Assembly (NCBI RefSeq): GCF_000688335.1
Contig: NZ_JHZX01000001.1
Coordinates: 558,001-622,000, forward strand
From: Sediminibacter sp. Hel_I_10
GTDB lineage: Bacteria > Bacteroidota > Bacteroidia > Flavobacteriales > Flavobacteriaceae
Reading direction: 5' to 3'
Length of the DNA: 64,000 nt
Positions 4,382 through 34,587 of the stretch are shown piece by piece; position 1 is the first letter of the stretch, and the number at the start of each line of letters is the position of its first letter. The translations under genes were made by a program, and so were the position numbers. Below the pieces are notes generated by a model that saw only the letters and a program-made list of their open reading frames with translations, made no database searches and was not told the origin of the DNA.

Positions 4382-5032
4382 TCAATATTTCTTTTTGAAA
4401 TTCCAATAGAGCGAGCGGAGATCACGATATAATTTATAGTTTGGCAATTGACGTTTTTTATTATTTCTGGCATGGGGGAAAGCCATCTGCGGCACTTTGT
4501 CAATATTCAAAAAACCGCATAGAGTATCATAATCAAAGTTTAGACCTTGTTTCATAATTATAAAGTTAGGTTTGTTCTTAAAAAAAGCAATAACGTCATT
4601 ATTATGTTGGTTATAGACTTTTTTATAGACTACCTCGTGACCTTCGGCACAAGGTACTTTATAAATTTTTTGGTGTAAGGGAACTCTAATACTTGCAAAA
4701 TAGTTCACTACACTTTTAATCCATTGTTCGGTAGGTCTAATGGTAAGTATAAATTTAGCATCAGGATAAAGCTCGTACAGTTCTTTATAAAATAAAGGCC
4801 ATGGCATATCTTGAAAGGCGTCCCAGTTTTTGAGCAGGCTGACTAAATACTCTTGCAAGTCTTCGGAATGTTCAAAATCCATTAAATGTTTAACCCCGCC
4901 ACATACTCTATAATCCAAAAACTGAAGCGCATGTTCCAAGGAGGTAGTGCCCGTTTTTTGGAAGCCCAAAATAAAGACTTTATGTTTCCTTGCATTGGAA
5001 ACAATCTTTTGATTATTGAAATTTTGTTCCAA
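4382..5032 (-). CDS. Sulfotransferase family protein
   Basis: 216 residues. FILGFQKTGTTSLEHAL at residues 20-36 is the P-loop-like 5'-phosphosulfate loop that holds the PAPS donor. KFILTIRPTEQWIKSV further on is the 3'-phosphate loop with its Arg and Ser. The protein is short for the family but has both donor motifs. It lies 43 bases after a methyltransferase gene on the same strand and ends towards a convergent methyltransferase gene. It most likely sulfates a sugar of the surface glycan. Some members of this P-loop family act on other targets, so the reaction is inferred. Confidence 0.8.
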   Translation of the reverse strand: MEQNFNNQKIVSNARKHKVFILGFQKTGTTSLEHALQFLDYRVCGGVKHLMDFEHSEDLQEYLVSLLKNWDAFQDMPWPLFYKELYELYPDAKFILTIRPTEQWIKSVVNYFASIRVPLHQKIYKVPCAEGHEVVYKKVYNQHNNDVIAFFKNKPNFIIMKQGLNFDYDTLCGFLNIDKVPQMAFPHARNNKKRQLPNYKLYRDLRSLYWNFKKKY

Positions 5033-10774: not shown

Positions 10775-11635
10775 CTAGCGATAGTGTCTTGGATATAGTT
10801 TAGTGTCAAATATATCCAAAATCTTATTGATGTCCTTCAATTCTTGAGAGGTGAATGTCTCTGAGATATTTTGTTGCTTTGCAACCACACCTTGGCTATG
10901 AGCTTTTGAAGATGGTAATTTGTAAAAAGCTTCAATGTTGTCCCTAAATTCAATTTTAAATTGTTGGCAGATATCATAAAACAATTTCAGATCCTTTACC
11001 AATTCTTCATAGTAAACCACTCTGTACGTATCTGATGAATGTTCAAAAATTTCTAATGGTAACACATTTTCAATGCACCAGCGCAGCGCTCTCAATTGTA
11101 AAACAGAAAGCTGATCCATCTGTCTTAAATCAAAATTAAAATTTATCTTGATAAAATCTCTTAAGCCATCCTGTTGAGCAAACAAAGACAAATCCTCTAA
11201 CCACGGAAAATTCACCCGATGCTGTGAAGCTAAGAGTTCATAAGGATTTCTTATCAAATGTAACACTGGAATCCCGAAGGTTTCATTCATGTATTTTGCC
11301 GCTAAATTACAGCGTACAAACTTGATTATAAACTTTTTAGGTATTAAAGGCCAGAGGTGCCGCTTGAATTTACGATTACTGTTTTGGGCAATCCAATCAC
11401 AGTCTACACGATTGGCAAAAACTTGCTTCAAATACCGATGCGCTTCTGGAGAGCTTTTTTCAGATTTAAGCCATTGATCACAAAGCAAGTAGCCACGTTT
11501 AGTACGGGTGTTTTGCTCGGGCTCAAATAACATGCGATAACGAGGCTGTTGGGCCATGGTCTCAGATAACCAACTGGTACCACTTCTTGCTGTTCCAACA
11601 ATAATGATATGTTTATTAAACCTAGACATTGGCAC
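10775..11635 (-). CDS. Sulfotransferase family protein
   Basis: 286 residues. GTARSGTSWLSETM at residues 14-27 is the 5'-phosphosulfate loop and LHLIRNPYELLASQHR near 125-139 is the 3'-phosphate loop, giving a complete PAPS site. It resembles the Sulfotransfer_3 group that acts on carbohydrates. Its start overlaps the end of a GT4 gene by 14 bases. It is not close in sequence to the other two sulfotransferases of the locus, so they probably modify different positions. Confidence 0.87.
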   Translation of the reverse strand: MPMSRFNKHIIIVGTARSGTSWLSETMAQQPRYRMLFEPEQNTRTKRGYLLCDQWLKSEKSSPEAHRYLKQVFANRVDCDWIAQNSNRKFKRHLWPLIPKKFIIKFVRCNLAAKYMNETFGIPVLHLIRNPYELLASQHRVNFPWLEDLSLFAQQDGLRDFIKINFNFDLRQMDQLSVLQLRALRWCIENVLPLEIFEHSSDTYRVVYYEELVKDLKLFYDICQQFKIEFRDNIEAFYKLPSSKAHSQGVVAKQQNISETFTSQELKDINKILDIFDTKLYPRHYR

Positions 11636-15934: not shown

Positions 15935-16804
15935 ATGCCAATTGATACTTTATTAAATAATGATGTTACAGTAATTATAAGATCATCCAAAGAACGATCA
16001 ATAGAGGTATGTTTGAATAGCGTACTAAAGGAAATTGATAAAACTAATGTTTTTCTCATTGAAGAAGTCCCTTTTATTAAAGCTGTACAAAAAACATTTG
16101 AAATAGGGTTAGCCGAAAATAGAAAATGGACTTTAGCCATCGATGCCGATTTGCTATTACTGCCTCATTCTATTTCCATAATGGTCAACCAAGCCCAATT
16201 AAAATCTGAAAAATTATATGTTTACCAAGGGTTTATACTAGATAAGTTTAGATGTGGGATTCGCCAAGGTGGACCTCACCTTTACAAAACAGAACATCTA
16301 AAAACGGCCCTCGACTTAATAGACAATGAAGGAAATAATTTAAGACCCGAGTCTGCTATTTATAATCAAATGATTAAACGTGGTTATGATGTGATAGTAG
16401 AAAAAAAGATTTTTGCCCTTCATGATTTTGAACAAAATTATAAAGACATCTATAGAAAGGCCTATTTTCACGGAATCAAACATAAAGGATGGAGAAGTCT
16501 TTTGGCATCTTGGCTAGAAAAGAGCGCTACAGATCATGATTATAAAATAGCTTCCAGTGGATTTTTAGACGGCTATTTTTCTGACAAAAGACAATACCCA
16601 TCTCCCGAAGAATTTGATCAAAAAACAATAGAGTTATTGCAAAAAAAATTCAACATCAAAGAAAAACCTGCTCTAGCTTCTGTTAAGAACGAATTCACAG
16701 AAGAGATCTTAAACAGCTACGGGATAAACTACAGTAAAGATTTAGACTTGATTCCTAAGAAAAAACCGCTAATCGCTAAAATTAAAAGCAAATTTTTTCA
16801 ATAA
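15935..16804 (+). CDS. Glycosyltransferase-like protein (GT-A type)
   Basis: 289 residues. NDVTVIIRSSKERSIEVCLNSVL resembles the first strand and helix of GT-A enzymes. WTLAIDADLLLLPHSISIM carries a DxD metal site near residue 70. The rest lacks the usual GT2 acceptor motifs and has no clear subfamily. It is read on the plus strand, against the main operon, and is followed by a second plus-strand gene. It is probably a glycosyltransferase of the same glycan. A small overlapping minus-strand frame at 15904-16140 was judged a shadow. Confidence 0.7.
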   Translation: MPIDTLLNNDVTVIIRSSKERSIEVCLNSVLKEIDKTNVFLIEEVPFIKAVQKTFEIGLAENRKWTLAIDADLLLLPHSISIMVNQAQLKSEKLYVYQGFILDKFRCGIRQGGPHLYKTEHLKTALDLIDNEGNNLRPESAIYNQMIKRGYDVIVEKKIFALHDFEQNYKDIYRKAYFHGIKHKGWRSLLASWLEKSATDHDYKIASSGFLDGYFSDKRQYPSPEEFDQKTIELLQKKFNIKEKPALASVKNEFTEEILNSYGINYSKDLDLIPKKKPLIAKIKSKFFQ

Positions 16805-16900
16805 ACTACGAAGACAATTCCGAGTAATTAGATAAGCTCTAGTTTAGAAACTAAAATATGAGCCGAATAAAGGATTAAAAGATTTTTTATTGCAATGAAG

Positions 16901-16931
16901 CAAACCGCTTTAAATTACCGTTAGCGGTTTG
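16901..16931 (+). other. Stem-loop with nine-base arms
   Basis: CAAACCGCT at 16901-16909 pairs exactly with AGCGGTTTG at 16923-16931 across a 13-base loop. It lies between two plus-strand genes, 97 bases past one stop and 46 bases before the next start. There is no T-run directly after it, so a simple terminator is doubtful; a leader structure or operator is equally possible. Confidence 0.55.
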
Positions 16932-16977
16932 TGGCAAAATTAATTATTTTTAAAGTATAACTATTTGAAAAGAACGC

Positions 16978-17697
16978 ATGGGCAGAGATGAATATTATGA
17001 CAATATCGATCGTGTTTTCAGACTCCCTAGAGTTTGGAGCAATCGAGAGCTATCTAAATTTGCACACTTATTCTCTGGAGATATTGCCAATGTAAGTGGT
17101 TGGAAAGATATTGATAAAGAAGGTAATACCTATAAGAACTATTTTTATAATGCTAGTAATTATATAATTACCAATTACAAAAGTGAAGCTAGAGGTTTTC
17201 AAGATATGGAAAATGAAATCTTTCTTGATCTCTCCTCTGAACTTCCACAAAATTTGATAAACAGATTTGACGTTGTATTTAACCATACTGTGCTAGAACA
17301 TATTTACCAAGTACAAATTGCTGTAAAAAATTTGTGTTTAATGACTAAGGATATCGCTATTGTCGTAGTTCCATTTTTACAAGAAATGCATGCAGACTAC
17401 GGTGATTATTGGAGATTTACACCCCAAACCATGGATAATTTATTTAAGGAGAATGGCATGGATCTCATGTACTGTTCCTTTAATTCTCATAAAAATGCAT
17501 CTGTTTATCTTTTTTGTATTGCTTCCAAACAAAAAAATAAATGGATAGATCTCATACCTCAAAGCAAATCTCATATAGATCCATTTAGCGATGGCAATCA
17601 CCAAAATTGGGTGGGCTGTCATGCCATTGACAATTCGAAGAAAAAACTAAATATATTAAAACGAATACTTAATAAAATAAAACGAAGTCTAAAATAA
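16978..17697 (+). CDS. Putative SAM-dependent methyltransferase
   Basis: 239 residues. FDVVFNHTVLEHIYQVQIAV matches motif II of type 11 methyltransferases, and DYGDYWRFTPQTMDNLF is a block often found in glycan-locus methyltransferases. The SAM-binding glycine loop is degenerate or absent: the first 100 residues hold no GxGxG. It could therefore be a poorly conserved methyltransferase or a non-catalytic relative. It is read on the plus strand and lies convergent to the GT2 gene at 17823. Confidence 0.65.
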   Translation: MGRDEYYDNIDRVFRLPRVWSNRELSKFAHLFSGDIANVSGWKDIDKEGNTYKNYFYNASNYIITNYKSEARGFQDMENEIFLDLSSELPQNLINRFDVVFNHTVLEHIYQVQIAVKNLCLMTKDIAIVVVPFLQEMHADYGDYWRFTPQTMDNLFKENGMDLMYCSFNSHKNASVYLFCIASKQKNKWIDLIPQSKSHIDPFSDGNHQNWVGCHAIDNSKKKLNILKRILNKIKRSLK

Positions 17698-22670: not shown

Positions 22671-23945
22671 TTAGTTGTTTATAATGTCATGAAATAAGTT
22701 CATATAATTTGTAGCCTGAATATTCAAACTATATTTTAATAACGCTCTAGATCTTATATCAGTCTTATCAAAAGCTTCAATTGATTCCAAAAATTCATTT
22801 AAAGTTTCAGAAAGGGATGGAGCGTCAACAGTTTTGGTTAACAATCCATTTACTCCATGCTCAATCATATCTGGCATACCTCCTATTGGAAAACCAATCA
22901 CCGGTGTGCCACACATTAAAGATTCTAATACTGTATTCGGTAAGTTATCCATCAATGAGGGGATCACAAAAACATCGGCTGCAGAAAAAGCTAAACTCAT
23001 CAACCGTTCATCAACAATAGCACCTAATTCAATCACGTTACTCGTAGTTTCCAAATCATTCTTTTTGGATCCAATAGCACATAAAACCACATCACTTCGA
23101 TTAAGCATATTAAAAGCTCTTTTCAAAAATACGTATCCTTTACGATGGTTACTAATGGAGTCTGCCACAAAAAGAATAACCTTTTTATCGCTCGGTATTT
23201 GGAACATTAACCTAGAAAAAACGCTATCCCTCGGCTGAAAAATATCGGGATTGATACCATAGGGTATACAATGGATTGGTCTGTTTTTAAAAAGCGCACT
23301 TTTTCTAGCTTCTTTAGCTAACCATCGTGATGGCGTCACAATGGTCAAATTACTCACCATAGCTAGGGCTTTTTCCTTGATATCTAAATTCTTTTGAAAA
23401 ACATTGCGTTCACTTGTAGTCAGTTTTCGAGTAATCGGAAATCCATCATCTTTCATACCTAAAATAGTTTCATTGTAATGTTCACCTCCTGTAAAAGGAT
23501 TCATATCGTGCAAAGTCCAAACTACAGGCTTAGTGTTTTTCTCAAAAAAACTTTTATAGTCTAAAAAATTGGCAACCCAATGTAGATTGATAATGTCAGC
23601 CTCTTGATAAAACTCAGATTGTGTGATGTCAAAAGAACTGTTTGGAAAACTAAAGAACTCTAAACCCTGATTTCTAGTTTTTCTAAATGTATGTTGCTCT
23701 ATTACGGCTTTTTTTTCAAATATCCCAAGTAATCTTAAAGCACTTATAAATTTAGAGCTTATAATTTGCCATTTATTTTTGGATTTAGAAATTGGCTTAA
23801 AGCTATAAGTGCTAGGTAATGATTTAATGCGGTGCTTTAATAATAAACTAACATTGACATTCTGCTCTAAAAGCCCTTCATGCAAACGAAGGCAAGCATT
23901 AGCTGCTCCTCCGGTATCAAATGTATTTACAATGAGTATTTTCAT
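22671..23945 (-). CDS. GT4 family glycosyltransferase (WcaC-like)
   Basis: 424 residues. KILIVNTFDTGGAANACLRL at the N-terminus is the glycine-rich acceptor loop typical of WcaC/AmsD-like enzymes. PVVWTLHDMNPFTGGEHY is a conserved block of this group, and the donor half has VLFVADSISNHRKGYVFL and DNLPNTVLESL near residue 330. It overlaps the methyltransferase gene upstream by four bases. Confidence 0.92.
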   Translation of the reverse strand: MKILIVNTFDTGGAANACLRLHEGLLEQNVNVSLLLKHRIKSLPSTYSFKPISKSKNKWQIISSKFISALRLLGIFEKKAVIEQHTFRKTRNQGLEFFSFPNSSFDITQSEFYQEADIINLHWVANFLDYKSFFEKNTKPVVWTLHDMNPFTGGEHYNETILGMKDDGFPITRKLTTSERNVFQKNLDIKEKALAMVSNLTIVTPSRWLAKEARKSALFKNRPIHCIPYGINPDIFQPRDSVFSRLMFQIPSDKKVILFVADSISNHRKGYVFLKRAFNMLNRSDVVLCAIGSKKNDLETTSNVIELGAIVDERLMSLAFSAADVFVIPSLMDNLPNTVLESLMCGTPVIGFPIGGMPDMIEHGVNGLLTKTVDAPSLSETLNEFLESIEAFDKTDIRSRALLKYSLNIQATNYMNLFHDIINN

Positions 23946-24862
23946 TTTGTTTTAGTAAATACCGCCAGCATAGTATGACCTTTAATATACTTTCTATTTG
24001 TTGCGATAATTTTTTTTAGTGCATTTTTGATCTTTTGTTTTTTAAGTAGTCCTTTAAAAAATCTATTTTTCTGTATCCATTTTCCATAGAAAGTGTCAAA
24101 ATACCATTTAACATGATAATCTTGAAGCGGTTCAAAATATATTTTATTTAATTTAACATTGAAATGTTTTTCTAAAAGAGATATTGACTTTGGATTCCAC
24201 AATCCCATGTGATGCGGCGGTTTATTGAGCACACCTCCTTCGGTGTGTTTTATAAAAGAATCATTGTTTGGGACTGCAATAATCATTTTACCACCTGTTT
24301 TCAAACAATCAATAGAAGATTTTAGAAAAGAGTTGACATCACTAATATGTTCTAAAACTTGATACGAACATACAATATCGTATGTTTCTTGATTTAATTC
24401 GGCATGTTGTTGAATAGTTTCTCCAATAACATTAAGATTTTTTTTCCTAGCTTGACTAATGCTCTTTTGATTCAGTTCTAGACCTGTAACCATATAATCT
24501 TCATTTTGTAATTTTTCAAGAAAGCCCATGCCTCCACTGCCAATTTCTAAAATATGTTCATCAAGCCTGAACAAATTTTTAGAAATTTCATGTTCCCATT
24601 TCCAAGGCATATAATACCAATCAAAATTTTGTAAACTCTCATAAAATTCACTATTACCGTCAATGTCAAAAGGGAAAAAAAATTGATATTGAGTTTCATT
24701 ACATTGGTAAATTCCAATTTCATCTAACCCTTCAAAATATTCTGAAACATCAATTTTCAAATACTTCTCATACTCCCAAATAAGGTGTGATATATTGATT
24801 TTTTTTATCAATTGAGCATTCGCTTCGGGAACTAGGGTAGATTTCAAAGTATTATTTAACAT
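23942..24862 (-). CDS. Class I SAM-dependent methyltransferase
   Basis: 306 residues. ILEIGSGGMGFLEKL is motif I, YDIVCSYQVLEHISDVNSFL motif II and CLKTGGKMIIAVPNNDSF motif III, a complete type 11 domain. An N-terminal extension of about 90 residues precedes it. The start overlaps the sulfotransferase gene by 11 bases, which itself overlaps the exporter ATPase gene. In related ABC-exported glycans a methyl or methyl-phosphate group caps the chain end, so this enzyme is a candidate for chain termination. It could as well methylate internal sugars. Confidence 0.9.
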   Translation of the reverse strand: MLNNTLKSTLVPEANAQLIKKINISHLIWEYEKYLKIDVSEYFEGLDEIGIYQCNETQYQFFFPFDIDGNSEFYESLQNFDWYYMPWKWEHEISKNLFRLDEHILEIGSGGMGFLEKLQNEDYMVTGLELNQKSISQARKKNLNVIGETIQQHAELNQETYDIVCSYQVLEHISDVNSFLKSSIDCLKTGGKMIIAVPNNDSFIKHTEGGVLNKPPHHMGLWNPKSISLLEKHFNVKLNKIYFEPLQDYHVKWYFDTFYGKWIQKNRFFKGLLKKQKIKNALKKIIATNRKYIKGHTMLAVFTKTK

Positions 24863-25667
24863 ATAAATAATTAAAATAATTTAATTCAGCTTGAGCTTCA
24901 TTTTCAAAAAAGGCGATTAGTTCTATTGCCATTTCTTCCTTATAAGATCCAACCTTACCTTTTCTTATAAACTCCTCCTTTTTATCCCAATCTTGATTGT
25001 TCCAACCAAGCTCACGTTCCTTTCGTTTCATCTCATTAAATGAATTTCCATTTATGGAACGTAAAAGGGTTTCTTCACTTCGGTCAATTTTTAAAAACGA
25101 CATGACACGCTTCATCTCACTTAAAGGATCATTAATTAAATCTTCATATTTTAAAGCTAAAATATCAGCATTATACGGGTTACTGATCCACTGCCTAGTA
25201 TGTTCATACCATTTTGAAGGGATGACTTCTTTTCCATTAATTACCATTTCCTCCAAGGTTACACTCTTTTTCATGGCTCTTTGCATAGCATAATAGGAAA
25301 CCATAACATCACGACCATCACGCACCAAATGAATGACTCTTTTCATATGAGGCCTAGGCAAATCATGGCTTTTAAAGAACGTTATGTTGTGAAATCGCTT
25401 GTAAAAAGATTTTCCATGAACATCTGGAACGAGTTCTTGAGTCAAACTATCTGGTAACAGGGCTGTGTCTATTCCAAAAACAACACCCGCTATAAGGTTT
25501 TGCATCCACGTATTTCCAGATTTTGGAAAGCCAGCGATATAAATATCTTGAGGCTCTGTTTTTTCGATTGGAATAAACTGATTAGCAGCCATTACCCTAT
25601 TCAGGTTTTGCTGTACGTACTTATCAAGCTTTATAATGCTTTTTATCTTTTTTCTAATGGTCTTCAT
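24852..25667 (-). CDS. Sulfotransferase domain protein next to the exporter ATPase
   Basis: 271 residues with the best-preserved PAPS site of the three: FPKSGNTWMQ at 47-56 (5'-phosphosulfate loop) and VIHLVRDGRDVMVSYY at 111-126 (3'-phosphate loop with Arg116 and Ser124). The later RKGKVGSYKEE matches the second PAPS-contact motif RKGxxGDW of cytosolic sulfotransferases. It overlaps the Wzt gene by 14 bases upstream and the methyltransferase gene by 11 bases downstream. Its tight link to the exporter suggests that sulfation happens on the finished chain before export; that is inference. Confidence 0.92.
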   Translation of the reverse strand: MKTIRKKIKSIIKLDKYVQQNLNRVMAANQFIPIEKTEPQDIYIAGFPKSGNTWMQNLIAGVVFGIDTALLPDSLTQELVPDVHGKSFYKRFHNITFFKSHDLPRPHMKRVIHLVRDGRDVMVSYYAMQRAMKKSVTLEEMVINGKEVIPSKWYEHTRQWISNPYNADILALKYEDLINDPLSEMKRVMSFLKIDRSEETLLRSINGNSFNEMKRKERELGWNNQDWDKKEEFIRKGKVGSYKEEMAIELIAFFENEAQAELNYFNYLYVK

Positions 25668-26949
25668 TTAGCATCCAATTTAATTTAGGCGACACTATAC
25701 CCGGCCATTTTTCTACGAAGGTAGAGCCACTAGCATGTTCACCTTCAATATCTACATACAAAACATCAAAAGGATCAATTAAAACCTCTTGTCCTGGTAC
25801 ACCTGCATTGAGAGCCAAAGTATACCTTGTCTTATTTAGCAAGTAACCAGGAATTATCAATTCTAAATAATGTCTTCCTTTTCCGAGTCCATTTTGAGTT
25901 AACTCGTGTGAACTGGTCGCAAAAGCAACTACTCCTGCTGGATTTTTTACTGCAATATTAAATCGAAAACCTTTTAAAACATCAGATAATTCAAAAATCA
26001 ACTCAATCCGTATTGCTTCAGACTGCATAAAAGTAGACCGTATTTTTAATTTTGTGTCTGTTGTTGCACAAGTAACTAATTTTAAAATTTTGTTTTTGGA
26101 ATAGATCTCTGTAAAACTAACTTTCCCTGAATTTGTATTTTGATTCTCATTATTCAAATAAAAATCTACAGCCTCATCCGTTCCTCCTTCAAAAACACTA
26201 ATCCCATTTTCTAAAACAATTGCTCTAGTACACAAACTCTTTACCGCTGCCATGTTATGACTCACAAACAACACCGTTCTCCCATCGCCTTTACTAATAT
26301 CCTGCATCTTCCCGATGGCCTTTTTTTGAAACTCGGCATCACCTACGGCCAAGACCTCATCAATCACCAAAATATCAGGCTCTAAATGGGCCGCTACCGC
26401 AAAGGCCAAACGTACCCGCATCCCAGAGGAATAGCGTTTTACAGGCGTATCTACATAACGTTGGCAACCAGAGAACTCAATAATTTCTTCTTCTTTGGCT
26501 TTAATTTCGCTTTTGCTCATGCCTAGAATGGCACCATTCAGGTAGATATTTTCACGTCCCGTCAATTCTGGGTGAAAACCGGTACCTACTTCCAATAAGG
26601 ACGCAATACGTCCTTTGGTCTTAATTTCTCCTGTGGTTGGGCTAGTAACCCGTGATAATATTTTTAAAAGGGTTGATTTTCCAGCACCATTTTTACCGAT
26701 AATACCCAGTATCTCACCACGTTGTACTTCAAAATTAATATCTCGCAACGCCCAAGCATAGTCACTATCGGCCTTGGCGCTACGGTCATTAACAGAACCC
26801 ACCTTTAAAAAAGGATCTTCCTTACCACGCACCCGATGCCACCAGCGGTTCAGGTCATGACTGAGCGTCCCAGTGCCCACCAAACCCAAGCGGTACTGCT
26901 TGCTGATGTTTTCTGCTTTTAAAATGATATCGTTACTATCTTCTTTCAT
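25654..26949 (-). CDS. wzt: Polysaccharide ABC exporter ATPase with C-terminal glycan-binding domain
   Basis: 431 residues. The nucleotide-binding domain spans about 1-255: Walker A GKNGAGKST near 84-92, signature YSSGMRVRLAF near 168, Walker B DILVIDEVLAVGD near 192 and the switch His in FVSHNMA. Residues about 275-431 form a beta-rich domain like Wzt_C, which in O9a-type systems binds the cap at the end of the finished chain. The enzyme powers export of undecaprenol-linked polysaccharide across the inner membrane. The permease gene ends 81 bases upstream on the same strand, with a small hairpin between them. Confidence 0.95.
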   Translation of the reverse strand: MKEDSNDIILKAENISKQYRLGLVGTGTLSHDLNRWWHRVRGKEDPFLKVGSVNDRSAKADSDYAWALRDINFEVQRGEILGIIGKNGAGKSTLLKILSRVTSPTTGEIKTKGRIASLLEVGTGFHPELTGRENIYLNGAILGMSKSEIKAKEEEIIEFSGCQRYVDTPVKRYSSGMRVRLAFAVAAHLEPDILVIDEVLAVGDAEFQKKAIGKMQDISKGDGRTVLFVSHNMAAVKSLCTRAIVLENGISVFEGGTDEAVDFYLNNENQNTNSGKVSFTEIYSKNKILKLVTCATTDTKLKIRSTFMQSEAIRIELIFELSDVLKGFRFNIAVKNPAGVVAFATSSHELTQNGLGKGRHYLELIIPGYLLNKTRYTLALNAGVPGQEVLIDPFDVLYVDIEGEHASGSTFVEKWPGIVSPKLNWMLNEDH

Positions 26950-27030: not shown

Positions 27031-27897
27031 TTACACAGTATCAATAAACGTCTTCTCCGTTTTATTGAACACCACAATCCCTATTAAAAATAAGACCACA
27101 CTACATAACAGGGTGTATAAAAAACCAGCCCAACTAAATGTGCCTGTACTCAATAGCATATACCGAAACCCCTCAATAATTTGACTTACGGGATTGTATT
27201 CTACAAAATTAGCGACAAGTTCTGGGAATTTTTTACGCGCTTCTGACAAAGGGTAAGGTACTGCCGACATGTACATTAACAAGGATACTGCAAACCCAAT
27301 GACCACGCTCATATCCCGATATTTTGTGGTCATGGAAGATAAGATCATCCCGGCACCCAGACCCAATAAGGCCATCATGATGACATACACGGGAAAGAGC
27401 AAGAGATTACTGCTAAGGGACACCTCGGCCCCATTGCTATAGTAATAAATATAAAAACCCGTAAATATAAATAACTGTATAAAGAATTTTAACAAGTTGG
27501 AGATGGTCACCGACATAGGCATGATGACCCTTGGGAAATAAACCTTCCCGAAAATCCCAGCGTTCTGTTTAAAAGTATCACTAGTTCCAGATAAACAGCT
27601 GTTAAAGTAATTCCAAGCTGTAATTCCTGCAAGGTTAAACAAAAATGGCGGAACTCCGTCAGTGCTGATACTGCCAAGGTTGTTAAATACCAAGGTAAAG
27701 ATCACCGAGGTAAACAAGGGCTGTATCAAATACCACAGCGGCCCCAAAATGGTCTGCTTATAGACGGTAACAATATCCCGTTTTACAAAGAGTAAAAGCA
27801 GATCCCTATACCGCCAGATTTCTTTAAAGTTAAGGTCTATTAACTTTCGTTTTGAGGATATTGTATAAAGCCAATCGTCGTTTTGGGCAGTGTTCAA
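27031..27897 (-). CDS. wzm: Polysaccharide ABC exporter permease
   Basis: 288 residues with six hydrophobic segments. YRDLLLLFVKRDIVTVYKQTILGPLWYLIQPL is read in two halves here: the coupling region RDIVTVYKQT and the first membrane segment LGPLWYLIQPL, both hallmarks of ABC-2 type polysaccharide permeases. YNPVSQIIEGFRYMLL near the C-terminus is the other family signature. With Wzt it moves the lipid-linked glycan to the periplasmic face. Upstream, about 200 bases separate it from the epimerase gene. Confidence 0.94.
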   Translation of the reverse strand: MNTAQNDDWLYTISSKRKLIDLNFKEIWRYRDLLLLFVKRDIVTVYKQTILGPLWYLIQPLFTSVIFTLVFNNLGSISTDGVPPFLFNLAGITAWNYFNSCLSGTSDTFKQNAGIFGKVYFPRVIMPMSVTISNLLKFFIQLFIFTGFYIYYYSNGAEVSLSSNLLLFPVYVIMMALLGLGAGMILSSMTTKYRDMSVVIGFAVSLLMYMSAVPYPLSEARKKFPELVANFVEYNPVSQIIEGFRYMLLSTGTFSWAGFLYTLLCSVVLFLIGIVVFNKTEKTFIDTV

Positions 27898-28095: not shown

Positions 28096-29085
28096 TTAGC
28101 GCATATGCTCAATCCACCAATCCCAAGTGATTTTCAGTCCTTCTCCTACCGAATATTCGGGATCATACCCCAATAAACGTTGGGCTTTAGAAATATTGGC
28201 CAAAGAATCGCGAACATCGCCTTGACGTTCGGGACCATATTGGGCAGAAATCTTCTTGTTGGCGGCAGTGTTTAGAGAGGCCCATAGGCCATTAACACTA
28301 ATGCGTTCTCCGCAAGCCACGTTAAACACCTCATTTTTGGCATCCTTAGATGCAAAAAATGCTTTGACATTGGCTTGAACCGCATTGGCAACGAATGTAA
28401 AATCACGAGTTTGCTCACCATCGCCATTGATTTGAGGAGAGGTGTCGTCTTTTAAAGCTTGCATAAACAAGGGAATCACTGCCGCATAAGCCCCTTCTGA
28501 GCTTTGGTTTGGGCCAAACACATTAAAATACCGCAACCCAATCACATCGGTATCATAGGTGCTACCGAAGACCTCAGCATAGAGTTCATTGACGTATTTG
28601 GTAACAGCATAAGGTGATAAGGGGCTACCAATGGTCTCTTCAACTTTAGGTAAATTTTTGCTATCGCCATAAGTAGAACTAGAGGCAGCATACACCATAC
28701 GCTTCACGCTATCGCTATCCTTTAAGGCAATCAGCATATTTAAAAAGCCACTGATATTAACCGCATTAGTCGTTGCAGGATCATGAATAGAACGTGGCAC
28801 CGAACCCAAAGCCGCTTGGTGAGACACATAATCCATCCCTTCCATCGCGCTTTTACAGGTTTCTAAATCGCGAATATCGCCTTCCACCAATTCAAAATTA
28901 GGCAGATCGCTAAAATCAGTCAGATTGTGCCGATGTCCGTTAGAAAAATCATCAAGCACACGTACTTTTTTAACGCCATGCTTTAATAAATAACGCACCA
29001 AGTTAGAACCGATAAAGCCTGCGCCACCGGTGACTAAAATTTGAAGTTTTGAAAGGTCGCAGTTGTGATAATTAGTGTTATACAT
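28096..29085 (-). CDS. UDP-N-acetylhexosamine C4-epimerase (WbpP/TviC-like)
   Basis: 329 residues, an extended short-chain dehydrogenase. ILVTGGAGFIGSNLV at 16-30 binds NAD. AASSSTYGDSKNLPK and SPYAVTKYVNELYAEVFG supply the catalytic Ser/Tyr/Lys set, Tyr near 158. The later GDGEQTRDFTFVANAVQ block is shared by WbpP, TviC and Gne-type enzymes. It is expected to interconvert UDP-GlcNAc and UDP-GalNAc or their uronic acids. Its start overlaps the stop of the dehydrogenase gene by one base, the same pairing as in Pseudomonas O6 and Salmonella Vi loci. Confidence 0.92.
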   Translation of the reverse strand: MYNTNYHNCDLSKLQILVTGGAGFIGSNLVRYLLKHGVKKVRVLDDFSNGHRHNLTDFSDLPNFELVEGDIRDLETCKSAMEGMDYVSHQAALGSVPRSIHDPATTNAVNISGFLNMLIALKDSDSVKRMVYAASSSTYGDSKNLPKVEETIGSPLSPYAVTKYVNELYAEVFGSTYDTDVIGLRYFNVFGPNQSSEGAYAAVIPLFMQALKDDTSPQINGDGEQTRDFTFVANAVQANVKAFFASKDAKNEVFNVACGERISVNGLWASLNTAANKKISAQYGPERQGDVRDSLANISKAQRLLGYDPEYSVGEGLKITWDWWIEHMR

Positions 29086-30383
29086 TATAATCTGGCATCT
29101 GATAGGTGATAAGGCAATAAGGACTTGACGTCAAAGATAACCCCAATGTCCGACTTCAACGCTTGAAGGTCCATACTTAAAAATTCATTGTGAGCAACCG
29201 CTAGAACAATGGCATCATAATCAGATCGTAACTGTTTGGCTTCTGTAATAAGATCTAGCTTATATTCGTGCTGTACCTCTTCAGCAGATGCCCAAGGATC
29301 ATAAACGTCCACATCGACATCGTAGGTTTTAAATTCTTCAATAATATCAATCACTCGAGAGTTTCTGATATCTGGACAGTTCTCTTTAAAAGTAATCCCT
29401 AATACCAATACACGCGCATCTTTAATACGCGCGCCTTTCTTAATCATCAGCTTGATGGTTTCGGTAGCCACGTAAGGCCCCATACTATCGTTTAATTTAC
29501 GGCCTGCCAATATGATCTCAGGGTCATAGCCAGACTCAATGGCCTTTTGGGCTAAATAATAGGGATCTACCCCAATACAATGCCCGCCAACCAAACCTGG
29601 TGAGAACTTAATAAAGTTCCACTTAGTGCCCGCAGCTTCCAATACTGCTTTGGTATCAATATCTAACAATCTAAAGATTTTAGACAGCTCATTTACAAAA
29701 GCAATATTGATGTCGCGTTGGGAATTCTCAATCACTTTGGCTGCTTCGGCTACCTTTATAGACGCCGCCTTAAACGTACCTGCGGTGATAATGGATTGAT
29801 ACAATTGATCCACCTCTTCGGCAATCTCTGGCGTGGAGCCTGAGGTCACTTTAAGGATTTTAGTGACCGTATGAAATTTATCGCCTGGGTTGATGCGTTC
29901 TGGCGAATAGCCTGCAAAGAAATCGGTATTAAAGCTTAAGCCTGACTGTTCTTCTAAAATGGGCACACAAAGTTCTTCGGTAACACCTGGGTATACTGTA
30001 GATTCATAAATAACGATATTGCCTTGAGACAATACCCGCCCTACGGTTTCACTAGATTTGATAAGCGGCGTAAACACCGGTTTCTTTAGGGCATCTGTAG
30101 GTGTTGGCACCGTCACAATGTATATATCAGAATCGGCAATAGCCGCAACCTCATCAGAAACTAATAAACCATGTGCCGCTTCATGTGCCGTCACTAGAAC
30201 CGATTTTAGGTCTTCCGAAGTAACTTCCAAGGTTTTATCGCGCCCCGCATTCAATTCGGTAACGCGTTGGCTATTGATATCAAACCCCACCACCTGGTAT
30301 TTCTTGGCAAATTCTACGGCTAAGGGCAGCCCCACATAGCCTAAACCAATAATGGTGATTTTCTTGTGTTGCATATGGCTCAT
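29085..30383 (-). CDS. UDP-N-acetylhexosamine 6-dehydrogenase (WbpO/TviB-like)
   Basis: 432 residues from the ATG at 30383, which overlaps the sugar transferase stop as ATGA. The frame is open to 30434, but that start would sit deep in the upstream gene. IIGLGYVGLPLAVEFA at 11-26 binds NAD, and GGHCIGVDPYYLAQKA near 264-279 holds the catalytic Cys in the form typical of WbpO/TviB. The enzyme oxidises UDP-GlcNAc or UDP-GalNAc at C6 to the uronic acid. It supplies an acidic sugar for the glycan together with the epimerase. Confidence 0.93.
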   Translation of the reverse strand: MSHMQHKKITIIGLGYVGLPLAVEFAKKYQVVGFDINSQRVTELNAGRDKTLEVTSEDLKSVLVTAHEAAHGLLVSDEVAAIADSDIYIVTVPTPTDALKKPVFTPLIKSSETVGRVLSQGNIVIYESTVYPGVTEELCVPILEEQSGLSFNTDFFAGYSPERINPGDKFHTVTKILKVTSGSTPEIAEEVDQLYQSIITAGTFKAASIKVAEAAKVIENSQRDINIAFVNELSKIFRLLDIDTKAVLEAAGTKWNFIKFSPGLVGGHCIGVDPYYLAQKAIESGYDPEIILAGRKLNDSMGPYVATETIKLMIKKGARIKDARVLVLGITFKENCPDIRNSRVIDIIEEFKTYDVDVDVYDPWASAEEVQHEYKLDLITEAKQLRSDYDAIVLAVAHNEFLSMDLQALKSDIGVIFDVKSLLPYHLSDARL

Positions 30384-30970
30384 GATGCTTTTATGGATTT
30401 TATAATAAGTTTCAAATCTAAGGAAAAACTCCAATTCTGCACGTAGTGTTTATTGATTTCCACCTTATCTTTCCAAATTACCAAACGGTTATATAGCTCT
30501 GGGTCTTTTTGCTGAGATAACAACTTTTCCTCATGCCTGTATTTAAGTGTGGCCGGTCCCGTAATCCCAGGTTTGACCTTTAGAATGATACGATCTTCTC
30601 CTTCAAGCAGATCGGCAAACCCAAACAGATCGGGTCTCGGTCCCACAAAACTCATCTGCCCTAAGATAACGTTAAACAATTGCGGTAATTCATCCAGCTT
30701 ATACCGCCGTATCAACCGCCCCAACGGCGTCGCCGCTTTCTCAAGATGCCCGAGCTGATGCACGTCATTATTAAGCGTTCTGATTTTATAAATTTGAAAG
30801 GGACGTCCAAATTGACCCACACGTTGTTGTACAAAAATCCCAAAGGCTTTAGTCTCTACTATAGATAAAATGATAAGCAGTACTATAGGAACTATCAAAA
30901 CGGGCAGCAAGAATACGCTAAGTACGAGATCAAAGGCACGCTTGAAAACTAACTGTTTTGAAGTGATCAT
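30380..30970 (-). CDS. Undecaprenyl-phosphate sugar-1-phosphate transferase (short WcaJ/PglC type)
   Basis: 196 residues, the minimal monotopic form with one hydrophobic segment at residues about 11-35. QRVGQFGRPFQIYKIRTLN, the catalytic RRYKLDELPQLFNVI and MSFVGPRPD are the family signatures. It places the first sugar phosphate on undecaprenyl phosphate and so starts the repeat unit or primer. It lies nine bases after the Wzc gene and overlaps the dehydrogenase gene by four bases. Confidence 0.94.
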   Translation of the reverse strand: MITSKQLVFKRAFDLVLSVFLLPVLIVPIVLLIILSIVETKAFGIFVQQRVGQFGRPFQIYKIRTLNNDVHQLGHLEKAATPLGRLIRRYKLDELPQLFNVILGQMSFVGPRPDLFGFADLLEGEDRIILKVKPGITGPATLKYRHEEKLLSQQKDPELYNRLVIWKDKVEINKHYVQNWSFSLDLKLIIKSIKAS

Positions 30971-30978: not shown

Positions 30979-33468
30979 TTAAATCTGCTCTCTAAAGAAG
31001 CGTTTCAAACGCCTAAAGATGGATCGTTTTCCGTCACCCTCATGATAGGCGTTCCCATAGACCCCATAACCATAACCGTAACCATAGCCGTAGCCATAGC
31101 CATAGCCATAATTATGGTTGGTCTTGTGTTTGTAAAAGTTTAGAACAAAACTGATGTTTTTGACCTCACCAACACGGTGTTTTGCGTTAATTAAAGAGAG
31201 CATCCCCTTCTTGGTATAATCCAAACGTACCATAAAAATGGTAGCGTCTGCGTACTGGGTTAATTCCAGTGCATCGGTCACCAAGCCCAAAGGTGGGGTA
31301 TCCAAAACAATCATGTCATAGGTTTGACGTAATTGAGTGATGAGTTCTTTTAATTGATCAGACATTAATAATTCTGAAGGATTTGGCGGTACAGGACCTG
31401 ATGGAATTACATCGAGATTGGCTATTTGAGTATTGGTTCTAATCTCCTCCAAGCTGCTTTCCCCGATCAAATAATTGACCATTCCCAAATCATTAGTGAT
31501 CTCAAAATCACCAAAGATTTTTGGTTTTCTTAAATCCAGACCCAATAAAATGGTTTTTTTACCGCTTAGGGCATATACTGTAGCAATATTAATAGAGGTA
31601 AAGGTCTTCCCTTCCCCACTCACCGAAGAGGTAATCATCAAAGTTTTACCGAGATTACCTTCCCCCTGTTTTTTATACAAAAACTGTAAACTAGATCGGA
31701 TGGCCCTAAAAGACTCCGCCACGGCAGACTTTGGCTTTTCAAAAACCACTAGGTTGTTTTTGTAATTGTACTTTCCAATCAAACCTAGGATGGGAATGTT
31801 AGACAAACGTTCCACCTCGTCAGAACCATGAATGGTATTATCTAACAAAAACACCACAAAAATTAAGAACATGGGACTAAAAAAACCAATCATCAAAGCC
31901 ATCATATAGTTCAAACTATGATTTGGTCCTATGCGACCACCCCCAATATCCTTAGCCTCATCAATAGAGGTAATATCCGAAACGTTTGCCGCCTTTACAA
32001 TAGCCGCCTCACCACGTTTGGTAAGATAGACATTGTAAGCTTCTTGACTCATATTCAACTTCCGTTGAATCTTTAAATATTGTTGTTGATCTTCAGGAAG
32101 GTCATTGAGATCAGCCTCTAATCGGGCAATGGTTTTATTAAGCGAGTTTAAATTAAGACCAATAGTTTGCTTAGTGGTATTGATGGTTTCTAACAGCACA
32201 TTTTTTTCAGCATCAATTTGGCGATCAATATCCTTAAAAATCAAATTTCCTTCTTGTACCGTATATTCCTTTGCCTGTCGTTCAGTAGCCAAAGCCTGTA
32301 TTTTAGCAACGCTCGAGATGATATTATTTTCATCTATCCCTACAGATGTAGGTGCTGCAATTTTGGTGTAGTCGGTTTTGGTTCGAAGATAATTTTCTAG
32401 GAAATTAAGATAATTGAGTTTCATCTCCTCTTCTTCCTTTCGTACATCAAACCCTCTCAGCTTTTCGGTGATCATGGTCATTTCAGCAGTGACGTCAAAC
32501 AGCTGGTTTTCCTTTCTAAAACTGTTCATTTCGTCCGTAACATCCTTTAAGTCATCGTTAACAGCATTTAAGCTACTGTCAATAAATTTAATGGTATTTG
32601 TAGCGTACAAGTTTTTACGCTCTAACTCTGTACTACTTAAAATCGCCGTGGTAGCATTTAGATAATCTACAATTTTGGATTTATTATTTCCAGACAAACT
32701 TAACTGCAGTACTGAGGATGCATTACCGGAAAAGGGATTGATAATCATCCCGTTTTGATATTGATTAACCACCGAATCAAAATTAAGAAATCTAAAAAAG
32801 TAGATATCTCCCTTTTTTGGAGATTTACCAATACGTGGTATAATCATCCCATTAAAAAAAGGCAGATTGATGGGCTCCCCGATGGAAAACGCTTGCCTAA
32901 ACAAACCAAGAGGCACTTTTGCTGCAGCTTTTAACTTGTCACCATAACGTTGAGTTTGAATTCCCTCAGACTCAAACTCTACAAACAATTCGAAACGATC
33001 ATTACTCAAGAACTCAATACCTATTGGTGTGCCCAGCATTTGACCTTTGCTATTGTCTAATTGCAGCTCAAAGGGGGCATTTTTATAGATGTCCTCTAGG
33101 CGGTATTTGCCTTCTCTTAAGTATTCCATATAATACTTTAAGGAGTCCATCACCAATTCATTATGGGTACGGGTTTTTACCGTCGTCATCACCTTGCCCG
33201 TTTTACCAGATACCCCACCCCAATTAAAGGAAATACTGGTATTTGCGGTAAAAAATGGATTTTGATCACTTTCTACATTAATCAGGGAGCTTAATCTGTA
33301 AACGCTCTGTTTTCTCACATTTATCAAATATGCAACAATGAGGGCCACACCAATGCATACCAAGACAAACTTCCAAAGATTTAAGACTTTGAAGAGATAG
33401 CCTCTAAAATCGAAGCTCGTTCCTCCTGGTTCGGCCTGATCATGATCTTGATGTTCAAATTCTGACAT
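30979..33468 (-). CDS. wzc: Wzc-like polysaccharide co-polymerase / BY tyrosine kinase
   Basis: 829 residues. A Wzz domain with a membrane segment near 30-50 is followed by a long periplasmic coiled-coil region (about 280-500), a second membrane segment near 515-540, and a cytoplasmic BY-kinase domain. That domain has Walker A SSVSGEGKT near 607-616, GLDLRKPKI as Walker A' and MIVLDTPPLGL as Walker B. The C-terminal tail holds eight tyrosines alternating with glycines, the likely autophosphorylation cluster. With Wza it controls chain length and passage through the envelope. It is more usual with Wzx/Wzy systems than with Wzm/Wzt. Confidence 0.94.
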   Translation of the reverse strand: MSEFEHQDHDQAEPGGTSFDFRGYLFKVLNLWKFVLVCIGVALIVAYLINVRKQSVYRLSSLINVESDQNPFFTANTSISFNWGGVSGKTGKVMTTVKTRTHNELVMDSLKYYMEYLREGKYRLEDIYKNAPFELQLDNSKGQMLGTPIGIEFLSNDRFELFVEFESEGIQTQRYGDKLKAAAKVPLGLFRQAFSIGEPINLPFFNGMIIPRIGKSPKKGDIYFFRFLNFDSVVNQYQNGMIINPFSGNASSVLQLSLSGNNKSKIVDYLNATTAILSSTELERKNLYATNTIKFIDSSLNAVNDDLKDVTDEMNSFRKENQLFDVTAEMTMITEKLRGFDVRKEEEEMKLNYLNFLENYLRTKTDYTKIAAPTSVGIDENNIISSVAKIQALATERQAKEYTVQEGNLIFKDIDRQIDAEKNVLLETINTTKQTIGLNLNSLNKTIARLEADLNDLPEDQQQYLKIQRKLNMSQEAYNVYLTKRGEAAIVKAANVSDITSIDEAKDIGGGRIGPNHSLNYMMALMIGFFSPMFLIFVVFLLDNTIHGSDEVERLSNIPILGLIGKYNYKNNLVVFEKPKSAVAESFRAIRSSLQFLYKKQGEGNLGKTLMITSSVSGEGKTFTSINIATVYALSGKKTILLGLDLRKPKIFGDFEITNDLGMVNYLIGESSLEEIRTNTQIANLDVIPSGPVPPNPSELLMSDQLKELITQLRQTYDMIVLDTPPLGLVTDALELTQYADATIFMVRLDYTKKGMLSLINAKHRVGEVKNISFVLNFYKHKTNHNYGYGYGYGYGYGYGYGVYGNAYHEGDGKRSIFRRLKRFFREQI
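31064..31115 (-). repeat. Six-base tandem repeat coding the Gly-Tyr tail of Wzc
   Basis: On the minus strand the unit GGCTAT is repeated with third-base changes (GGT, TAC), giving Y(GY)7 in the protein. A repeat of this type can gain or lose units by slippage without shifting the frame. This would change the number of phosphorylatable tyrosines in the kinase tail. Confidence 0.85.
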
Positions 33469-33479: not shown

Positions 33480-34274
33480 CTATAAACGGTCGATTAGCAA
33501 AATGGTAGTTCCCAAGAAACTTAGAATAGTAACTGCAGTTCTAAACGTATCGATACCAGTAATCCCTGTACCATAGGTTTTTTCTTTTAAAGGCATTACA
33601 TAAATCATATCATTGGGCTGGATGTAATAATAGGGGGATTGCATGACGTTAATATCGGTTAAATCCAACATATGAATTTGTTGTCCTTGGGGATACTGCC
33701 TAATAATCTTGACCTGCTTCCGATCTCCCGTAACGGGGATCTCTCCTACATTGGCGATGGCTTGAAAGATATTCACCCGGTCTTGAAATAAAACCTGACT
33801 CCCAGGACTGCCCACTTCACCCATAGCCGTGTAACGTAAACCCGCCAATTTAACGGTGATAAAGATATTGGCCGTTTCCTTAAACTGCTCTTCTAAAAGC
33901 TTGGCTTTAATCCTTTTTTCTATAGCCTCAGTAGTAAATCCCAACACATTCAACTCCCCAAGTTCAGGGATTCTTATCATACCATGCAAATCAACCGTAA
34001 AACCGTCAAAATAAGCCCTTTCAGCAGCACTTGCGCTCAAATTACCCTCACCTATAGGATTAAAAATAGTCACATCATCTTGATCCAAGACTTTGATTCT
34101 AATATTGAGAATATCATTAATTTGTACACGGTAGGGCTTTGGCTGCTCTACCATAACTTGTAAAGAATCTGTTGTCGTGTTTTTTTCTTGAAGATAGACA
34201 ATGTCTTTGTGGGGAATACAGGAGGTTGATATCATACACAATATCAATCCTATAATCAGTAAAATTCTATTCAT
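33480..34274 (-). CDS. wza: Wza-like outer-membrane polysaccharide export lipoprotein
   Basis: 264 residues from the ATG at 34274. MNRILLIIGLILCMISTSC is a lipoprotein signal with Cys19 as the acylated residue. The frame remains open to 34358 but that would place the promoter box at 34297 inside the gene and bury the signal. After the signal comes the polysaccharide export domain (YRVQINDILNIRIKVLDQDD) and a soluble ligand-binding beta-grasp domain (YTAMGEVGSPGSQVLF). A C-terminal hydrophobic segment replaces the amphipathic helix of E. coli Wza. It forms the outer-membrane exit, and is the first gene of the export operon. Confidence 0.92.
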   Translation of the reverse strand: MNRILLIIGLILCMISTSCIPHKDIVYLQEKNTTTDSLQVMVEQPKPYRVQINDILNIRIKVLDQDDVTIFNPIGEGNLSASAAERAYFDGFTVDLHGMIRIPELGELNVLGFTTEAIEKRIKAKLLEEQFKETANIFITVKLAGLRYTAMGEVGSPGSQVLFQDRVNIFQAIANVGEIPVTGDRKQVKIIRQYPQGQQIHMLDLTDINVMQSPYYYIQPNDMIYVMPLKEKTYGTGITGIDTFRTAVTILSFLGTTILLIDRL

Positions 34275-34296
34275 GCCAAAGTCGCTTGTTGCGTCA

Positions 34297-34304
34297 CAAA
34301 TATA
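34297..34304 (-). promoter_or_regulatory. Bacteroidota -7 box for the wza-wzc operon
   Basis: Read on the minus strand the bases are TATATTTG, an exact fit to TAnnTTTG, about 23 bases before the wza ATG. No clear TTG was seen about 20 bases further upstream, so the -33 element is weak. It is the probable main promoter of the polysaccharide export genes. Confidence 0.55.
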
Positions 34305-34587
34305 GGTGTTCGCCCTTAATATTAAAACTAAAGGGCATTTTTTTGAAATCATAACCATAAATAGATTTGATGCATTACCATCCTTATTAAAGATCCGTCT
34401 TCAGTTTTGAATACAACCTCCGCCTTGCCAGTATCCCATAGTTAGCATTCAACTTTAGCTATTGCTCTACTCACAATTGACAAGGCCAAGTCTCGCCATT
34501 CAAATCCATGCATTTAGATGAACTTAAAACGCACCGCGTCCATATTATCTAATCTCTAATACCCAGAAAACACGCCTCTCATGGAAC

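Follow-up and report, generated by a model that had tools for sequence, protein, structure and literature searches.

Genes at the exporter locus

The window, the whole 64,000-nucleotide stretch of Sediminibacter sp. Hel_I_10 DNA analysed here, carries a polysaccharide cluster with an ABC exporter. The genes and domains considered below all lie on the minus strand and are listed in the direction of transcription.

33480-34358, minus strand: Wza-like (NCBIfam match)
30979-33468, minus strand: Wzc-like (NCBIfam match)
30380-30970, minus strand: short sugar-phosphate transferase (NCBIfam match)
29085-30434, minus strand: TviB-like dehydrogenase, a UDP-sugar enzyme (best NCBIfam match, below the equivalog cut-off)
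28096-29085, minus strand: TviC-like epimerase, a UDP-sugar enzyme (best NCBIfam match, below the equivalog cut-off)
27031-27897, minus strand: Wzm, exporter membrane subunit, beside Wzt (ABC2_membrane, E 2.3e-17)
25654-26949, minus strand: Wzt, ATPase subunit of the ABC-2 polysaccharide exporter, 431 aa (ABC_tran, E 2.7e-23; closest PDB entry by sequence 8dku, A. aeolicus WzmWzt, E 8.8e-65)
Wzt residues ~1-267, minus strand: nucleotide-binding domain
25657-26148, minus strand, Wzt residues ~268-431: C-terminal carbohydrate-binding-type domain by predicted fold, the proposed chain-end reader
24852-25667, minus strand: sulfotransferase of the PF00685 (cytosolic SULT) family, 271 aa, the proposed chain-end writer (Sulfotransfer_1, E 3e-35)
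23942-24862, minus strand: class I SAM-dependent methyltransferase, 306 aa, a possible second writer (Methyltransf_23, E 1.4e-14)
22671-23945, minus strand: glycosyltransferase (GT4-like), after the methyltransferase gene (Glyco_trans_1_4, E 2.2e-22)
10775-11635, minus strand: third sulfotransferase-like gene of the cluster (Sulfotransfer_3, E 8.3e-06; 26.6 bits against a cut-off of 27)
4382-5032, minus strand: second sulfotransferase of the cluster (Sulfotransfer_4, E 4e-30)

The original prediction placed Wzt, sulfotransferase and methyltransferase genes in a series overlapping by 14 and 11 bases, and its coordinates, strand and gene identities are confirmed. Wzt and the sulfotransferase gene share 25654-25667 (14 bases), the sulfotransferase and methyltransferase genes share 24852-24862 (11 bases), and the methyltransferase gene overlaps the following glycosyltransferase gene by 4 bases.

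The PF00685 domain of the sulfotransferase scores 122.3 bits against a curated cut-off of 22. PKSGNT, RDGR....SY, H101 and F.RKG, which we take to be the PAPS-binding and catalytic motifs of the enzyme, are invariant in an alignment of five sequences, and an APS kinase for PAPS is encoded in the same genome. The methyltransferase scores below the cut-off of the UbiG model. A Wzy_C protein is encoded ~5 kb beyond the window start. For Polysacc_synt (PF01943), the one flippase family searched, there are six matches genome-wide and none in or near the cluster.

The two additional sulfotransferase-like genes mean that the glycan may be sulfated internally. They favour an alternative to sulfate at the chain end: the sulfotransferase would decorate internal sugars and the C-terminal domain would read some other cap, most simply a methyl group added by the product of 23942-24862, as in A. 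aeolicus. This alternative appears rather unlikely, and further evidence on it is given below.

The Wzt C-terminal domain and known exporters

Wzt combines a nucleotide-binding domain (NBD) and a C-terminal jelly-roll of the Wzt type in one protein, the jelly-roll fold being taken from a predicted model. The AlphaFold2 model of the C-terminal domain, built from five sequences, has a mean pLDDT of 82.7, and its 16 best Foldseek matches are all Wzt carbohydrate-binding domains or full-length WzmWzt. The PDB matches are 6o14, 8dky, 5hno, 5hnp, 2r5o, 8dl0, 8dne, 8dku and 7k2t. Their sources include A. aeolicus, O12 and 2r5o, presumably the E. coli O9a Wzt domain. Against Pfam Wzt_C (PF14524), the window's domain reaches 20.5 bits, under the cut-off of 30.4; a Wzt_C search of the window's own genome gave no match at E 1e-8, and PDB sequences searched with a profile of the C-terminal alignment yielded no helpful match. 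The earlier assignment of this domain to the cap-binding Wzt type is supported by predicted fold. Membership in the class of capped-glycan exporters rests on this modelled fold, and formal membership in Pfam Wzt_C is not claimed.

The introduction of PMC9445017 names three sorts of cap for ABC-exported O antigens: methyl groups, (methyl)phosphate and added sugars, Kdo being an example. The word "sulfate" is absent from that text, as is "sulf" from the text of PMC11231755. Among the matches listed from the open-licence literature, titles and the openings of abstracts contain no proposal of a sulfate cap read by Wzt.

The best match to the window Wzt in both sequence and fold is A. aeolicus WzmWzt (8dky, 8dku), which likewise has an NBD and a C-terminal jelly-roll, and whose end sugar is described as 3-O-methylated (PMC9445017). 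Unlike this methyl-cap system, the window Wzt has both a sulfotransferase and a methyltransferase as neighbours. The cap-pocket residues also differ between the two proteins, in a low-identity alignment that ends before the methyl-stacking Trp362. The thirty residues of the window Wzt past the aligned part hold no Trp, which argues against a methyl cap. Residues 329, 331, 345, 348 and 381 of this Wzt characterise its C-terminal type and fall at or close to the cap-contact positions of A. aeolicus. An hhalign comparison of the domain with the A. aeolicus fragment gives a 9% probability and agrees with the sequence alignment where both cover.

The C-terminal fold is also shared with Wzt of E. 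coli O9a and K. pneumoniae O3 (2r5o), which is paired with WbdD and a methyl-phosphate cap. WbdD is described as a kinase and a methyltransferase in one protein (PMC3482155), with a coiled-coil ruler (PMC11231755). As in WbdD systems, two modifying activities accompany the exporter at the window locus; unlike WbdD, they are encoded by separate sulfotransferase and methyltransferase genes, and the arrangement is not of the WbdD type.

Two further systems bear on the nature of the mark. The window C-terminal fold resembles that of O12 Wzt (5hno), whose cap is a Kdo sugar added by the glycosyltransferase domain of WbbB (PMC11231755). A parallel in gene order is the ABC-type wbsalmo cluster of Aeromonas salmonicida, in which a conserved gene with a sulfotransferase domain (ORF19) directly follows wzt (ORF18). 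According to PMC4483657, the O-antigen structure as known shows no residue of this kind, and ORF19 is not among the mutants listed there. This case counts in favour of the chain-end reading proposed for the window. This cluster differs from the window in also encoding a WbbB-like protein (PMC4483657). By analogy, the mark could be an unrelated end sugar, with the sulfotransferase modifying that sugar and being dispensable for export. Kdo caps and the WbbB-like protein of A. salmonicida speak for this, but no such gene was recognised among the first genes after Wzt at the six loci of the window's C-terminal type, and we consider it highly improbable.

The gene position directly after Wzt

Wzt genes were compared at 141 places: the window's own, 120 places forming the best-E-value head of a longer list (G149, near a contig end, omitted; G028, obtained separately, included), and 20 from another search. 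One locus, L073 (G037), represents another family of the same order; all remaining loci belong to the window's family. Downstream comparisons use 140 loci, L161 having no downstream gene on its contig. Wzt genes with a distant ATPase domain (~50% identity; for example G008, G010, G014 and G016) were excluded, and loci that are nearly identical, L063 and L064 for example, count separately. First genes were grouped by single linkage, with both gene ends called by rule; chemistry was assigned by scanning representatives from 47 of the 60 clusters against Pfam, the rest counting as other unless named.

By this classification, the first gene after Wzt encodes a sulfotransferase in 38/140 loci, a methyltransferase in 37/140 and a kinase-like protein in 3/140. 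Sulfotransfer_1 is found in 25/140 first, 8/139 second and 7/137 third genes, and Sulfotransfer_3 in 29/140, 9/139 and 8/137; both are enriched in first genes as compared with second and third genes together (Fisher p 1.4e-4 and 2e-5). Glycos_transf_2 shows the reverse distribution (4/140, 34/139 and 51/137; depleted in first genes, p 4e-13). FkbM methyltransferases occupy the first slot in 18/140 loci and the RfbT profile matches in 7/140, while fused sulfotransferase-FkbM proteins also occur among the compared loci. Of the three kinase-like first genes, one is fused to a methyltransferase and one falls just below the Pfam cut-off; they resemble WbdD in domain content. WbdD is absent among the PDB matches listed for L157 and L138. 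A family of 240-residue proteins after Wzt (9 loci), without a Pfam match in the one member scanned and without a PDB match, was left out of the methyltransferase count.

The encoded proteins differ in charge as well. The mean net charge of the N-terminal 30 residues is +3.75 for first genes, +1.37 for second and +0.85 for third, and that of the window sulfotransferase is +7. Basic N-termini would be expected if these enzymes act at the membrane surface. Taken together, the position after Wzt is a specialised, terminator-like slot in the compared loci.

Gene overlap was considered as evidence for functional pairing and rejected. The first downstream gene overlaps Wzt in 69/140 loci, by at least 10 bases in 37/140 (counts that are approximate because start codons were chosen by rule), and where overlaps are this common an overlap proves little.

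Six loci are known to carry the window's C-terminal type, and in five the next gene encodes a sulfotransferase of the same family. One of these, L177, was identified solely by its C-terminal domain. The sixth, L034, has an FkbM-cluster gene next, then a protein without a Pfam match. Type members score 240-270 bits against the profile of this type and the next locus 58, the high scores being partly by construction, as the profile was built from five members. Judged by pairwise blastp score, the values are 0.61, 0.57, 0.52 and 0.27, followed by 0.14. In L036 the third gene after Wzt is 62% identical to the window's glycosyltransferase 22671-23945. The sulfotransferase cluster itself is not tied to this C-terminal type, since four of its eight first-gene members (L038, L079, L121 and L166) stand beside other types.

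These loci also bear on the methyl-cap alternative. In its favour, the window, L036 (FkbM cluster) and L177 (by eye) each have a gene resembling a methyltransferase further on, the first gene of L034 is of the FkbM cluster, and methyl caps are known (PMC9445017). Set against this, a sulfotransferase accompanies this type more regularly, as first gene in 5/6 loci, whereas the methyltransferases differ in kind, and L054 and L043 have none in their first two genes.

Coupling of the C-terminal domain with its neighbour

The C-terminal domain tracks the presence of a sulfotransferase, and the ATPase domain hardly does. On a FastTree tree of the C-terminal domain, whose alignment is very divergent, sulfotransferase state requires 13 changes, as compared to a mean of 33.6 and a minimum of 27 in 300 shuffles; on the corresponding ATPase-domain tree it requires 28 (shuffled mean 33.7, minimum 26; 300 shuffles). 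Among the 38 loci with a sulfotransferase, the closest other C-terminal domain again has a sulfotransferase next to it in 37, and the closest other ATPase domain in 26. With neighbours restricted to ATPase identity <0.85, the count for the C-terminal domain is 27/38. The excess of coupling over chance is 0.52, 0.35 and 0.22 at the first, second and third genes, a decay that linkage would likewise give.

Because the C-terminal domain adjoins the next gene, co-transfer alone yields some coupling. If recombination exchanges serotype regions with a breakpoint near the end of the ATPase domain, the C-terminal domain and the gene after it would move jointly, with no recognition between their products. 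The decay with distance is consistent with such hitch-hiking, as is the conservation of ATPase but not C-terminal domains (median identity over 140 loci, window included, 79% and 15%). So is the result for non-homologous first genes: beside similar C-terminal domains their chemistry is not significantly better matched than after shuffling of chemistry among gene clusters (p 0.16-0.44 for pairs of sulfotransferases, p 0.30-0.69 for pairs of methyltransferases). Hitch-hiking leaves unexplained the enrichment of sulfotransferases and FkbM proteins in the slot, the scarcity of glycosyltransferases there and the basic N-termini of first-gene proteins; we judge it an unlikely explanation. The largest C-terminal type (21 loci) has mixed neighbours, namely sulfotransferase, DegT aminotransferase and FkbM. 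The idea that C-terminal domains beside sulfotransferases are more basic was rejected (-1.97 vs -1.91, p 0.77).

The best explanation, which we hold with about even confidence, is that the Wzt C-terminal domain and the directly following enzyme form a swappable reader-writer pair. The writer would mark the lipid-linked glycan at its non-reducing end, on the inner membrane face, and the C-terminal domain would read this mark, restricting export to finished chains. At the window locus, the writer would be the PAPS-dependent sulfotransferase, with the adjacent methyltransferase probably acting alongside it, and the mark an end sugar that carries sulfate and perhaps methyl as well. The analysis itself shows the genes, the predicted fold, the specialised slot and the way the C-terminal domain tracks sulfotransferase presence. 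That sulfate sits at the chain end, stops growth and is bound by the C-terminal domain is what we infer from there, by analogy with methyl or phosphate marks in known systems. The joint travel of the C-terminal domain and its neighbour gene suggests that chain-end sulfate may be a "ready for export" mark, and with the adjacent methyltransferase the cap may instead be methyl, or combine sulfate with methyl. The original proposal of sulfate as an export signal read by Wzt stands in part: C-terminal fold, terminator-like slot and coupling favour it, and the gene overlaps weigh little.

More tentatively, and with somewhat less than even confidence, the C-terminal domain and its neighbour may be an exchangeable cassette across Flavobacteriaceae, using sulfate (one of the commonest), sulfate plus methyl, methyl, acetyl, pyruvyl or kinase-made marks, with sulfate as a new class of export signal. 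If true, a sulfate cap would be a new chemical class of signal for ABC glycan export, and could account for sulfotransferase genes next to wzt in systems whose repeat units show no sulfate. The naturally exchanged C-terminal domains would be a ready panel for learning cap choice.

Beyond the family, a sulfotransferase after Wzt was seldom seen. Among 296 genomes of the phylum, Wzt_C matched at E 1e-8 at 23 places outside the family, of which 20 were compared (G498 and one G644 place were left out, and G037 was already present as L073). At five of these, the next called gene is >170 bases away, making gene order less sure. A sulfotransferase-like first gene was seen by eye at 1/20 (L202); the family-trained profiles missed it and may miss others. 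Methyltransferase first genes were found at four of the 20 places by profiles and at about three more by eye.

Covariation of the Wzt C-terminal domain with its neighbour gene

Of the family's 397 genomes, 200 carry a close match to the ATPase domain of the window Wzt (E up to 1e-60). The comparison covers 141 Wzt genes, comprising the window and 140 further loci; 140 of these genes have a downstream gene. All but the window and L073, a locus from another family of the same taxonomic order, are relatives within the family (139/141). Median pairwise identity across these genes is 79% for the ATPase domain but falls to 15% for the C-terminal domain.

The presence of a sulfotransferase directly after Wzt tends to follow the variable domain. 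At the 38 loci where this first gene is a sulfotransferase, the nearest C-terminal domain also lies beside a sulfotransferase in 37, as compared to 26 for the nearest ATPase domain; the 11 loci that differ do so in one direction (p 0.001). When neighbours are limited to ATPase identity below 0.85, the nearest C-terminal domain lies beside a sulfotransferase in 27/38. On trees, the sulfotransferase state changes 13 times for the C-terminal domain (shuffled mean 33.6) and 28 times for the ATPase domain (33.7). The methyltransferase state changes 22 (shuffled 32.9) and 29 times (32.8), respectively. For a sulfotransferase as second gene (10 loci), there is no contrast between the domains (8 versus 9 changes). 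For the C-terminal domain, the excess of same-cluster neighbours over chance is 0.52 at the first gene, 0.35 at the second and 0.22 at the third; the corresponding values for the ATPase domain are 0.14, 0.18 and 0.13.

Linkage of adjacent sequences can mimic such coupling. In a comparison meant to tell the two apart, similar C-terminal domains showed no significant tendency to adjoin non-homologous first genes of the same chemistry. Of the 8 first-gene members of the window's sulfotransferase cluster, 4 adjoin a C-terminal domain of a different type, and neighbours of several chemistries occur within the largest C-terminal type. Taken in aggregate, the sequence comparisons offer good support for the reading that the C-terminal domain and its neighbour gene tend to be exchanged jointly.

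Composition of the gene position after Wzt

The first gene lies within 60 bases of Wzt in 134/140 loci. In first, second and third place, respectively, Sulfotransfer_1 is found in 25/140, 8/139 and 7/137 loci, Sulfotransfer_3 in 29/140, 9/139 and 8/137, and Glycos_transf_2 in 4/140, 34/139 and 51/137. FkbM is found in 18/140 first and 7/139 second genes; the third-gene list of 25 families does not include it. General methyltransferase models show no first-place specificity (e.g., Methyltransf_11: 12/140, 20/139, 6/137). The distinct composition of the first gene, as compared to the second and third, makes this place look like a terminator slot. Sulfotransferases are among its commonest fillings: the 140 first genes cluster as sulfotransferase (38), methyltransferase (37), DegT aminotransferase (11), hexapeptide (9), SAM-like without assignment (9), pyruvyl transferase (8), glycosyltransferase or likely so (5), kinase-like (3) and other (20). 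Outside the family the filling differs, with 1 sulfotransferase-like gene (by eye) among 20 first genes.

Several first genes encode fusions. L120:3472-4980 (domain scan) and L148:3470-4978 (assigned by clustering) encode a 503-residue sulfotransferase-FkbM methyltransferase, combining in one protein the two activities that the window encodes separately. Hexapeptide transferase-Sulfotransfer_3 fusions occur at L065 (scanned), L067, L068 and L124 (clustering), and radical SAM-pyruvyl transferase fusions of 723-726 residues at L051:2809-4986 (scanned), L082:2816-4984 and L083:2503-4680 (clustering). Protein-kinase-like first genes occur at L157:3181-5010, L126:2817-5012 and L138:3115-5004, the last just under the Pfam cut-off; that of L157 recalls WbdD, with hexapeptide, kinase and methyltransferase parts in a single protein. 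A 240-residue family follows Wzt in 9/140 loci (L104:2463-3182 and eight more), all with one C-terminal type (12 loci); one scanned member has no Pfam match, and the family has no PDB match.

Predicted fold and candidate cap-contact residues of the C-terminal domain

A Pfam Wzt_C scan of the window Wzt gave only a match below cut-off. The 16 best PDB matches of an AlphaFold2 model of the C-terminal domain, built from five sequences (mean pLDDT 82.7), are Wzt carbohydrate-binding domains or full-length WzmWzt (6o14, 8dky, 5hno, 5hnp, 2r5o and others); 8dky contains 3-O-methyl-mannose. This predicted fold bears out the original assignment to the cap-binding type, and by fold the exporter would belong with the capped exporters.

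Five loci of the set share the window's C-terminal type: the window, L036, L034, L054 and L043 (pairwise scores 0.61, 0.57, 0.52 and 0.27, versus 0.14 for the next locus). A profile built from five type members also gives them high scores, partly by construction. A scan of named genomes returned four loci: L034, L054 and L043 (on the contigs already in the set) and a new one, L177 (32% identical). Judged by their titles, four of these six loci come from metagenome bins, and the L043 contig spans only 3,885 bases.

Genes after Wzt, in order, at the six loci of the window's C-terminal type
Window: sulfotransferase, methyltransferase, GT4
L036: sulfotransferase, FkbM-cluster gene, GT4
L177: sulfotransferase, methyltransferase-like, sulfotransferase-like (last two by eye)
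L054: sulfotransferase, hexapeptide
L043: sulfotransferase, sulfotransferase-like (second by eye)
L034: FkbM-cluster gene, protein without Pfam match

The L043 and L177 sulfotransferases pair clearly (54% identity versus 31-39% to others), and their C-terminal domains weakly (33% versus 25-30%).

In A. aeolicus Wzt, Asn313, His350 and Ile299 hold the cap, and the methyl group of the cap sits in a pocket of Leu300, Thr346, Ala348 and Trp362 (PMC9445017). In a low-identity alignment (chain numbers are the paper's plus 1), Asn313, His350, Ile299, Leu300, Thr346 and Ala348 align with window S346, N381, I332, A333, T377 and A379, and Trp362 is not placed on a window residue; a second alignment agrees where it covers these positions. 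Residues common to the five type members and rare elsewhere lie at or near the cap-contact positions: N331 (3/136 others), H348 (3/130), N381 (3/136), T345 (9/136) and R329 (15/136). L177, outside this count, has Q in place of N381. This placement is no more than suggestive. C-terminal domains beside sulfotransferases are no more basic than the others.

The window cluster and sulfate as a candidate export mark

The exporter genes lie in a minus-strand cluster encoding, in sequence: Wza-like, Wzc-like, short sugar-phosphate transferase, TviB-like, TviC-like, Wzm, Wzt, sulfotransferase, methyltransferase and several glycosyltransferases. Further along are additional glycosyltransferases, an MBOAT acyltransferase, an asparagine-synthase-like gene and a hexapeptide transferase. 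Gene coordinates confirm that the sulfotransferase adjoins Wzt and precedes the methyltransferase, with the overlaps of 14 and 11 bases as originally described:

25654-26949, minus strand, Wzt
24852-25667, minus strand, sulfotransferase
23942-24862, minus strand, methyltransferase
4382-5032, second sulfotransferase-like gene of the cluster
10775-11635, third sulfotransferase-like gene of the cluster

Sulfotransfer_1 matches fall in three places genome-wide, the gene beside Wzt being one, and the genome encodes an APS kinase. This sulfotransferase looks functional: PKSGNT, RDGR....SY, H101 and F.RKG, which we take to be the PAPS-binding and catalytic motifs of the SULT family, are invariant across five sequences 37-60% identical to it. 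The genome has six matches to PF01943 (Wzx-type), all of them away from the cluster. About 5 kb past the window start, on the cluster's strand, there is a Wzy_C protein (ligase or polymerase).

The original prediction was that sulfate could be part of an export signal. This idea gains from the tendency to joint exchange; a sulfate-bearing mark is the best-supported reading of these sequences, with a chance of being right close to that of a coin toss. In Aeromonas salmonicida, too, the gene right after wzt has a sulfotransferase domain and is conserved, and the study's authors report no such residue in the known O-antigen structure (PMC4483657). Sulfate at the chain end could be missed by repeat-unit analysis. 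By fold this exporter groups with the capped exporters, and its neighbour is a sulfotransferase, a kind of enzyme for which we found no description as a cap writer in the literature surveyed.

Two plus-strand genes at 15935-17697, in A+T-rich surroundings and neither with a family above cut-off, interrupt the cluster and are possibly a later insertion. The Wzc-like protein (30979-33468) carries an alternating Tyr/Gly run close to its C-terminus, likely the tyrosine-rich tail typical for such kinases.
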